Position numbers and translations under genes: made by a program. The notes below the pieces were generated by a model. It was not told where the DNA came from, did not search any database, and worked only from the letters and a program-made list of their open reading frames with translations. Positions 23,958 to 27,212 of a DNA stretch of 34,335 nucleotides are shown here, one piece after another. This DNA is from Candidatus Peribacteria bacterium. Its GTDB lineage: Bacteria > Patescibacteriota > Gracilibacteria > UBA1369 > LOWO2-01-FULL-3. Position 1 is the first letter of the stretch. Each line of letters begins with the position of its first letter. The DNA is taken from assembly GCA_943357285.1 (NCBI GenBank), contig CALRGJ010000012.1:1-34335 (forward strand). The letters are read 5' to 3'.

Positions 23958-26900
23958 CTATTTCTTTAGCTTTTTATCACTCCAATAAACGATAAGTGGA
24001 GCAGCGATGAAAATTGATGTATAAGCTGCGATAACTACGCCGAGCATAAGAGCCAATACGAAGTAGAATATTGAAGCATGTCCGAAGATCAAAATTGCTA
24101 ACATTGTTAAGGCGATTGAGATAGATGTGTTGATTGATCTAGCTAAAGTCTCATTAAGAGCTTTGTTGGCTATTTCCTTTATATTATCTAGAGAATTATT
24201 TGTAAGTGTTTCTCTGAGACGATCGAAGATTACGATTCTGTCATTCACTGAGTAACCGAATAATGTAAGCATAGCTGTCGCAAAGAGAGCATCGATTTCC
24301 ACATCAAAGAATTTACCAAGGATAGCGAAGATACCCATAATTATTACTACATCGTGGATAAGAGTAACGATAGCACTTGCACCAAAACGCCATGGATTAA
24401 CTTCTTTTGGAATTTTGCGGAAAGCGAAGTAGAGATAAATAACGATCATTACGATAGAAATAAATCCTGCAAGCATTGCCTTACTAAGTAATGTTGCTCC
24501 AATTGTTGCTCCAATAGTAGTAAAACGAGTTTCACTAAATGCTGGAACTTTTGATTTAAGTGTTGCTATTAATTGATCGTGATTGCTTGGGGATAGATAG
24601 TTTGTTTTAATGATGAATTCGTCTTTGCCTGAAGTGATAATATTCACTGAGGTAAGGCTAAATTTCTCCTCATCTGGGGACTGAATTACTTTGTCTTTTG
24701 TTGTGCTTGCAGGAACGCTTTCAACAGGTTTTTCTTCTGTGATTGCTGGTTTGTTGTTAATTTCAACACTGCTTTCATCTAGGGCTTTAGCAAGCTGCTC
24801 TTTATTAACAGTTTCATTGAATTTAAGAGCTAGTAATGAACCACCCTTGAAATCAATACCAAGATTTAGTCCAAAAACAAAGATTGCTAGAATCGCTGCT
24901 GTAAATGTAGCAGCAGAAGCTGTGAACCAGATTTTGCTCTTGCCGATAAAGTCGAAAGATAGTTCTTTTTTCTTTTCAGAAACTCCGAGTAATTTTAGGT
25001 TTTCTGCGTATTTTGTACGTGCAATACCTTGTAAAAGAATCTTTGTAATAGTGATAGCTGTGAACATTGATACTAGGATACCTGCAGCAAGATTGAATGC
25101 GAATCCTCTAATGATTGAGCTACCAAAGTAAAATAAGATTCCAGCTGTAATCAATGATGAGAAGTTTGAATCTCTAATAGCGCTCCATGCTCTATTGAAT
25201 CCAATTTCAATGGCTGTATTGAGTTTATTTCCTGCTCTTAATTCTTCCTTAATTCTTTCGAAAATAAGAACGTTTGCATCTACTGCCATACCGAAGGAAA
25301 TGATCATACCGGCAATACCAGCGAGAGTTAGAACTACTCCACTGTTCAAGAGGAAGGTAATGAAGAAGAATCCTAAACAGCTTAATACAAATGAAAGTAG
25401 TTTTTCCCAACCAGGTTCGCTACCATTAATGATTTTCCAAATAATGAATCCAAAAACTCCGAGAGAAATTAATAGTGCTAATCCTAAGCTTAGGTGAGCT
25501 TTAATTAAGAATAATAGAAGTGCTCCGTAAAGAATCAAACTTCCGCTAGCCGCCAAACCTGGTAGGCGATAGTAAGCAACCATAAAAATCATAACTAAGA
25601 GTACACCAATGAAACCAGCCATAAGACTTTGGTTCAATGCACCTTGTCCTAATGATGCACCAAGAGTGTATTCACCTGTGAGAACGATTGGTGCTGGAAT
25701 TGCTCCTGTGTTTAGATCTCTTGCTAGATTCTTAGCTTCTTCACTGCTGAAGTTGCCAGAGATTTGAGCTTTACCTCCTGAGATTTTCTCATTTACTCTT
25801 GGGCTAGAAATCATTTCTCCACCTACGAAAATTGCAATAGGTTTACCAACATTTTTTGATGTAAGTTCTTCAAACATTTTTGCTCCTTCGTCGTCGAATT
25901 GAATGTTTACGTATGGTTGGAAGAAGTTGTCTACCTGTACGTCAGCGTGCATAAAATGTTTACCGTTCAACCCTGTATCAGCCCATTCATTTGGTTTTGT
26001 TGAATAGCTCAAAGTTTCGTATTTGTACTTCTGTTGTTTTACGTTGCTTTGAACTGAATTTGCTTTGATAAGGTTGTAACCGTTCTGAGTCTTTACGATG
26101 TCGCTGATGTCTCCGTCTTTTGCGAGTCCAAGAGCAGCTTTTTCAAAATCATATGGGTATGATCCATTTCCTGTAATTGCGCTTTCAAGTTTTCCTCCAT
26201 TTGCAGCGCTGTCTGAATCGTCAGAATATTTCTTTGCTAGGTCTTCAAACTTTTCTCCGTTGTTTAATTTTTCTTTAACTTCTTTTGCTAATTTGTAAGC
26301 TTCGTCTTCGTTTCTAGTTACAGTAGCATTTGCTTTATCAGCACCTTTGTAAGCGATAACGATACGGCTTACCTCTACTTGTTTTTGGTCTTTAACTTCT
26401 TCTTTTATATCTACTAACTTAATGATGTTTAAGCTTGTGTCTTGTACTGCTTGACCTGTTGAGTCTAGAGCAAAAGTGCCACTTGATTCGATAAGGTCTT
26501 TTGTAACTTCTCCTACCTTCATCTTGCTAAGAGCGTCTTTTAGGTAAGCTGGAAGGTCTGAAGCAAAAGCATAGTCAGGTTTTGCATATTTGATCTTGTC
26601 AGCAGCTGATTGAGATTCTTCTTGAGCTATAACTGAGAAATCTGCACCTTTGTTTATTTTCTCTTGAGCGGATTGAGCACCTGCTGTTATTTTTTCTTTT
26701 TCTTGAGGATCGAGCTGAGTTTTCTGTTCTTTGAATTCAAGCTGAATAGTTTTACCTACAGCTTCTTTAGCTTTTTCAATACTAACTTCTTTCTTTTCGT
26801 CGTCTGTAATGTCAGCTAATAGCTTATCTTTACCAATATATTTAGTTACATCAGATTGTTCTATAGTGGCATTGTTTGCCAATTCTACTATAATATGTGC

Positions 26901-27212
26901 TTCTTCGCTGATAGTAGAATTATAGATATTTGGTTCTTCTACTCCCAATCCATTTACACGTTTTGTAATAACTTCTTGAACACCCTCTACGATGCTTTCG
27001 CGATCTTTTTCAGGAACATCACGTAGATCTATTTTGTAGTCCAATTGTGAGCCTCCTTGAAGATCAAGTCCTAAGTTAATCTTTGCTTTTAGAATAGCCT
27101 CAGGAGTGAAAGGCACGATTTTTTGTTGGATGTTACTTGGTAAATCAAAAAAGCCAAGGAACAATGTGACTATTAGGATTGCCAGCAATTTTCTTGTGAG
27201 ATGTTTTTTCAT
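23958..27212 (-). CDS. secDF: SecD-SecF fusion with tandem parvulin-like domains inserted in SecD
   Basis: A membrane protein of 1,084 residues that uses the ion gradient to help pull exported proteins through SecYEG. SecD part: N-terminal TM (about 8-24), LGLDLQGGSQLDY (47-59), P1 start (to about 162), P1 end (about 410-515) and a TM block from about 520 (AGFIGVLLVMIFMVAYY), including GMAVDANVLIFERIKEE. SecF part: TM near 760, LGIDFKGGSLLALKF, then a TM block with GYSVNDRIVIFDRLRE. Between about 163 and 395 a foreign segment interrupts P1. Residues about 278-388 read as a parvulin rotamase (FEDLAKKYSDDSDSAANGGKL, DFEKAALGLAKDGDIS, VKTQNGYNLIKA), and about 172-270 as a degenerate copy (KINKGADFSVIAQE, LSKMKVGEVTK). 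The usual active-site histidines are Arg283 (VSRIVI) and Asn380 (GYNLIK), so isomerase activity is doubtful. TATAAC lies 6 nt before the ATG. The gene follows the cupin after 23 nt. Confidence 0.93.
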   Translation of the reverse strand: MKKHLTRKLLAILIVTLFLGFFDLPSNIQQKIVPFTPEAILKAKINLGLDLQGGSQLDYKIDLRDVPEKDRESIVEGVQEVITKRVNGLGVEEPNIYNSTISEEAHIIVELANNATIEQSDVTKYIGKDKLLADITDDEKKEVSIEKAKEAVGKTIQLEFKEQKTQLDPQEKEKITAGAQSAQEKINKGADFSVIAQEESQSAADKIKYAKPDYAFASDLPAYLKDALSKMKVGEVTKDLIESSGTFALDSTGQAVQDTSLNIIKLVDIKEEVKDQKQVEVSRIVIAYKGADKANATVTRNEDEAYKLAKEVKEKLNNGEKFEDLAKKYSDDSDSAANGGKLESAITGNGSYPYDFEKAALGLAKDGDISDIVKTQNGYNLIKANSVQSNVKQQKYKYETLSYSTKPNEWADTGLNGKHFMHADVQVDNFFQPYVNIQFDDEGAKMFEELTSKNVGKPIAIFVGGEMISSPRVNEKISGGKAQISGNFSSEEAKNLARDLNTGAIPAPIVLTGEYTLGASLGQGALNQSLMAGFIGVLLVMIFMVAYYRLPGLAASGSLILYGALLLFLIKAHLSLGLALLISLGVFGFIIWKIINGSEPGWEKLLSFVLSCLGFFFITFLLNSGVVLTLAGIAGMIISFGMAVDANVLIFERIKEELRAGNKLNTAIEIGFNRAWSAIRDSNFSSLITAGILFYFGSSIIRGFAFNLAAGILVSMFTAITITKILLQGIARTKYAENLKLLGVSEKKKELSFDFIGKSKIWFTASAATFTAAILAIFVFGLNLGIDFKGGSLLALKFNETVNKEQLAKALDESSVEINNKPAITEEKPVESVPASTTKDKVIQSPDEEKFSLTSVNIITSGKDEFIIKTNYLSPSNHDQLIATLKSKVPAFSETRFTTIGATIGATLLSKAMLAGFISIVMIVIYLYFAFRKIPKEVNPWRFGASAIVTLIHDVVIIMGIFAILGKFFDVEIDALFATAMLTLFGYSVNDRIVIFDRLRETLTNNSLDNIKEIANKALNETLARSINTSISIALTMLAILIFGHASIFYFVLALMLGVVIAAYTSIFIAAPLIVYWSDKKLKK

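Follow-up and report, generated by a model that had tools for sequence, protein, structure and literature searches.

SecD, alone or as part of a SecDF fusion, works with SecYEG in proton-driven protein export, and what happens to the exported chain as it leaves SecYEG is an open question. The E. coli chaperone SurA attaches to the extracytoplasmic side of the holo-translocon, and in five of the five top AlphaFold models its two parvulin domains lie on the P1 head of SecDF, a part credited with binding polypeptide and with moving as protons flow (PMC9987972). The evidence for this SurA-SecDF contact consists of low-resolution EM and modelling (PMC9987972).

The locus analyzed here bears on that question. 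It lies on a stretch of 34,335 nucleotides from a Candidatus Peribacteria genome (contig CALRGJ010000012.1; the whole stretch is called the window) and encodes a SecD-SecF fusion protein. Both SecD and the parvulins are known families; what appears to be new is a parvulin tandem inside the P1 head of SecD, and we found no earlier report of parvulin domains in SecD in the open-licence literature. The P1 base and head, Sec_GG and SecD_SecF_C are common to this protein and to the known SecDF proteins (Thermus thermophilus, PDB ID: 3AQP; E. coli SecD/SecF), but those are without a parvulin insert, whereas the SecD of the window carries about 233 residues after the first strand of its P1 head. SurA (PDB ID: 1M5Y) resembles the insert in being an extracytoplasmic parvulin tandem with a less canonical copy followed by a more canonical one, and its modelled position on the P1 head (PMC9987972) is the site of the insert; it differs in being a free-standing soluble protein that has N- and C-terminal chaperone parts of its own. 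PpiD (PDB ID: 2KGJ), with which a first-pass annotation of this DNA had compared the insert, is an apt comparison in that it too places a parvulin fold at the translocon, one described as inactive in the title of a reference cited in PMC9643414, as appears to be the case in the window's genus; PpiD is, however, a separate membrane-anchored protein and not part of SecD. SurA, whose parvulin domains have been modelled on the P1 head, is the closer analogue of the two.

A parvulin tandem interrupts the P1 head of SecD

The protein belongs to SecDF by its profile matches, with 329.6 bits against TIGR01129 (cut-off 244.4) and 269.4 bits against TIGR00966 (cut-off 160), and it also matches PF22599, PF07549 (Sec_GG) and PF02355 (SecD_SecF_C). 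In the Pfam matches, SecD_1st covers residues 76-127 and the P1 head residues 413-507, the latter corresponding to profile positions 19-114. The parts of the gene are listed in Table 1.

Table 1. Parts of the SecD-SecF gene, with positions in the window
Feature	Position	Strand	Evidence or remark
SecD-SecF fusion gene	23958..27212	-	1,084 aa; ORF and profile matches
N-terminal part of SecD P1 base, residues ~40-151	26760..27095	-	PF21760 at 76-127; alignment
First strand of SecD P1 head, VGKTIQLEFKE, residues 152-162	26727..26759	-	Alignments with relatives
Parvulin domain 1 (degenerate), residues ~163-262	26427..26726	-	PF00639, 28 bits, above cut-off
Parvulin domain 2, residues 274-390	26043..26393	-	PF00639, 76 bits; PrsA1; Pin1
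Arg283 codon, at the first catalytic-type histidine (Pin1 H59)	26364..26366	-	Alignments and structural alignment
Asn380 codon, at the second catalytic-type histidine (Pin1 H157)	26073..26075	-	Alignments and structural alignment
Remainder of SecD P1 head, residues ~408-510	25683..25991	-	PF22599, 97 bits
SecD transmembrane (RND) part, residues ~511-740	24993..25682	-	Pfam and comparison of relatives
SecF part, residues ~750-1084	23961..24965	-	TIGR00966, PF02355

The insert begins directly after the strand VGKTIQLEFKE, which aligns with the start of the P1 head in SecD proteins that have no insert and which is conserved in nearly all relatives. Because the insert follows the P1 head's own first strand, it interrupts the head itself, and when it is removed in silico an ordinary P1 head is left, with a profile score of 100 bits. 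The architecture is shared by four genomes of the genus and by many other genomes, which rules out an assembly error.

Both halves of the insert match the Rotamase profile (PF00639, cut-off 21.7) when scanned alone, the second with 76.4 bits and the first with 28.0 bits, and the matches extend over residues ~297-385 (domain 2) and ~168-247 (domain 1). This bears out the first-pass reading of two tandem parvulin domains within P1, including the degenerate state of the first copy, whose first strand is not recognisable and whose profile match in relatives begins at position ~34. A domain-2 profile built from relatives finds a weaker copy ahead of domain 2 in the window (E 9e-6) and a clear first copy in the tandem SecD proteins of other classes, with up to 62 bits; these first-copy matches, too, usually begin after the first strand. 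Against solved structures (phmmer), the insert matches Listeria PrsA1 first (E 3e-14, through domain 2), followed by other PrsA, Pin1 and SurA chains; PrsA is a foldase, and the sequence of domain 2 is no closer to SurA than to PrsA.

The AlphaFold model built for residues 150-404 reaches a mean pLDDT of 84.5, with values mostly of 90-97 in domain 2, for which the input included parvulins of known type from viral contigs, and mostly of 77-92 in domain 1, for which it consisted of three near relatives, dropping to 59-68 near the end of that domain. The model of domain 2 has the parvulin fold, aligning with Pin1 at Z 19.0 and an rmsd of 1.1 Å over 106 residues, and an interpretation of the insert as ordinary P1-head variation was rejected on the Pfam, PDB and fold matches. 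The modelled tandem aligns with residues 186-385 of the SurA chain over 185 residues with an rmsd of 14, a value that reflects a different relative placing and orientation of the two domains; it is solely through this alignment, as part of the tandem, that the fold of domain 1 was aligned. Domain 1 ends in the model with a strand that continues into the opening strand of domain 2, whose own final strand runs towards the P1 head. A first model of the whole P1 region, built from eight rows, gave pLDDT values of ~26-67 in the insert and is not the basis for the fold of the insert or for its placement relative to the P1 head; its base and head best match the SecDF structures 3aqo and 5yhf. The parvulin genes of viral contigs come from a viral collection (L219-L224), and one of them, L219, resembles a membrane protein of the PpiD type and might be DNA of bacterial origin.

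The fusion is widespread among Patescibacteria

The homologue survey that the first-pass annotation had proposed finds the insertion throughout the window's class and in other classes of Patescibacteria, so it is no oddity of a single genome. Within the class, 160 of the 288 sampled genomes have a Rotamase match and 274 of the 288 a P1 head; among the 150 Rotamase matches listed, at least 117 share an open frame with a P1 head, the two being 60-210 bases apart. For comparison, 96 stretches were fetched from this and other classes. In the window's own order, SecDF fusions have 1,013-1,145 aa; elsewhere in the class, SecD is mostly a separate protein of 681-947 aa; and in other classes, SecD has 669-721 aa with a tandem or 555-630 aa with a single domain. 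A profile that joins domain 2 to the P1 head matches over both parts in 61 of the 362 genomes searched across the phylum. About half of these 61 (~30) lie outside the window's class, two further genomes have partial matches, and many Patescibacteria in the same search have no insert. The same profile found no fusion among the matches listed, best first, from 198 genomes of another phylum, and none at E 1e-30 in 115 and 120 genomes of two further phyla, an outside sample of 433 genomes in three phyla other than those thought nearest to Patescibacteria.

In a tree of the parvulin cores, the second domains of the window's own and other classes group together (support 0.88), and the first domains form another group (support 0.81). 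This grouping across classes suggests that the tandem was present before these classes parted, a tentative reading given the shortness of the sequences. The single-domain SecD proteins (L201-L208, L191) have no recognisable first parvulin strand, and the SecD strand that precedes the insert may complete the sheet in these forms.

Catalytic-type histidines are lost in one genus and kept in most relatives

Alignments place Arg283 and Asn380 of the window's protein at the two catalytic-type histidine positions, as the first-pass annotation had it, and the structural alignment with Pin1 agrees (H59 and H157, counted from the ends of the aligned range, Pin1 53-163). The two active-site histidines by which an active parvulin prolyl isomerase is recognised are thus absent in the window, while the third catalytic-type residue, Asp332 (the C113/Asp position), is kept, as are L342 and F356 of the proline pocket. 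Neither histidine is present in any of the four genomes of the window's genus, which have Arg/Asn (window, L002 and L003) or Asn/Asn (L001). Of the 92 relatives outside the genus, 78 retain both; the share is 8 of 8 for the family, 28 of 30 for the order, 17 of 20 for the class, 20 of 29 for other classes and 5 of 5 for extra copies. The other-class forms that lack the first histidine are mostly single-domain proteins in which the first strand is not recognisable. As most SecD parvulins keep both residues, the ancestral or general form of the module looks like a competent prolyl isomerase, and an inactive holdase fits the window's genus only. The first-pass annotation had taken inactivity and the histidine substitutions as the nature of the module; that would fit the window's genus but not most relatives.

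Within the genus, dN/dS values, where computable, are 0.03-0.08 for domain 2 and 0.07-0.22 for domain 1, while the P1 base and head give 0.03-0.08 and the membrane parts 0.04-0.17; all are rough values, as several synonymous distances are saturated. The insert is under strong purifying selection in this genus, and with both histidines gone this means that domain 2 has lost its catalytic residues without decaying. A passive spacer or tolerated insertion with no function of its own might have been expected from the degenerate state of domain 1 and from the absence of the insert in many Patescibacteria and in the sampled genomes of three other phyla. However, the strong selection, the conservation of catalytic-type residues over distant lineages and the maintenance of the insert across many families with small genomes already largely contradict such an explanation, which we regard as highly improbable.

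What the two histidines do in parvulin catalysis is a matter of debate, and this, together with the retention of Asp332, L342 and F356, would allow domain 2 of the window's genus to be an active prolyl isomerase despite their loss. We consider this quite unlikely, since both histidines are lost in 4 of 4 genomes of the genus but kept in 8 of 8 other family members sampled, and a loss throughout the genus suggests a relaxed need for catalysis. An extracytoplasmic cyclophilin was considered as the reason for the loss and rejected: in the family, 21 of 26 genomes have cyclophilins, and some of these belong to members whose SecD histidines are intact.

Detached copies and genome context

In the window's genome, which is 99% complete, the SecD pair are the only parvulins; the genome also encodes trigger factor and a cyclophilin with a lipoprotein signal. 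Elsewhere the module is found apart from the motor. Family f5 (L211, L212, L213, L214) has a paralogue of 471-505 aa that consists of a parvulin and a P1 head with no membrane motor, lies near a glyA-like gene in all four cases and, in three of the four as read, starts with a lipoprotein signal (LTGC, LSGC, FSGC); these copies would be anchored like PrsA, itself a separate lipoprotein. In another family, L209 (3131-4057, minus strand) encodes a protein of 309 aa in which a hydrophobic, signal-like start precedes a parvulin domain, and the sequence of this domain is close to that of the second SecD domain. That the module is also employed without the motor supports an independent function for it.

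A probable foldase or holdase at the SecYEG exit

From these comparisons we infer a chaperone function: the insert is probably a tandem parvulin chaperone or foldase held at the exit of SecYEG, where it would catch the polypeptide as P1 moves. The module sits in the P1 head of SecDF, which is mobile, extracytoplasmic and thought to bind the emerging chain, and the parvulin pair may take hold of that chain there. In most lineages it would act as an isomerase on the prolines of this chain. In the window's genus it would bind without catalysing, the holdase role that the first-pass annotation had put forward. A role attributed elsewhere to a separate protein (SurA, PpiD, PrsA) would here be built into SecD.

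The module might instead be a platform for protein docking or regulation, with grooves that bind a different segment of SecDF, YidC or a cell-surface factor and not the exported chain. The window's genus, which keeps the fold under strong constraint without the histidines, is compatible with such a platform, as is the intramolecular contact made by the inactive parvulin domain of SurA (PMC9643414). Yet most relatives keep the canonical histidines and pocket residues, which pure docking would not need, and detached copies exist, and we think docking unlikely to be the function. Within the preferred reading, a chaperone pair at the exit, a more specific and tentative version is possible, in which the P1 head is a moving arm with its own foldase, whose proton-driven swings would each carry the parvulin pair to the emerging chain and couple export to prolyl isomerisation or holding, and which in the window's genus has become a non-catalytic catcher. 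If this were true, the fusion would be evolutionary evidence that the P1 head and parvulin chaperones are natural partners.

The fusion of both partners at the same place, over many families, offers independent support for the SurA-SecDF contact, and the fused SecD is a single-chain protein in which a contact between parvulin and P1 can be tested by structure determination and cross-linking. It also indicates a way in which ultra-small genomes that have no separate parvulins may deal with exported proteins. In addition, nature provides here two versions of one module, one presumably catalytic and the other presumably not.

Variation in and around the fused genes

In family f17, a small ORF of 218-231 aa adjoins the fused SecD (L162 1513-2166, L172 1483-2142, L178); it has a weak P1-head match, and genomes of this family often have two P1-head matches. 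In family f23, the P1-head matches of SecD contain an in-frame TGA, which is to be expected where TGA codes for an amino acid. The SecDF gene of the window is itself a mosaic. Its N-terminal half is mostly closest to that of L003 (up to 95%), as are the flanking genes on both sides, and its C-terminal half is closest to L001 (up to 98%), with L003 there at 28-80%, a pattern that points to recombination within the gene.
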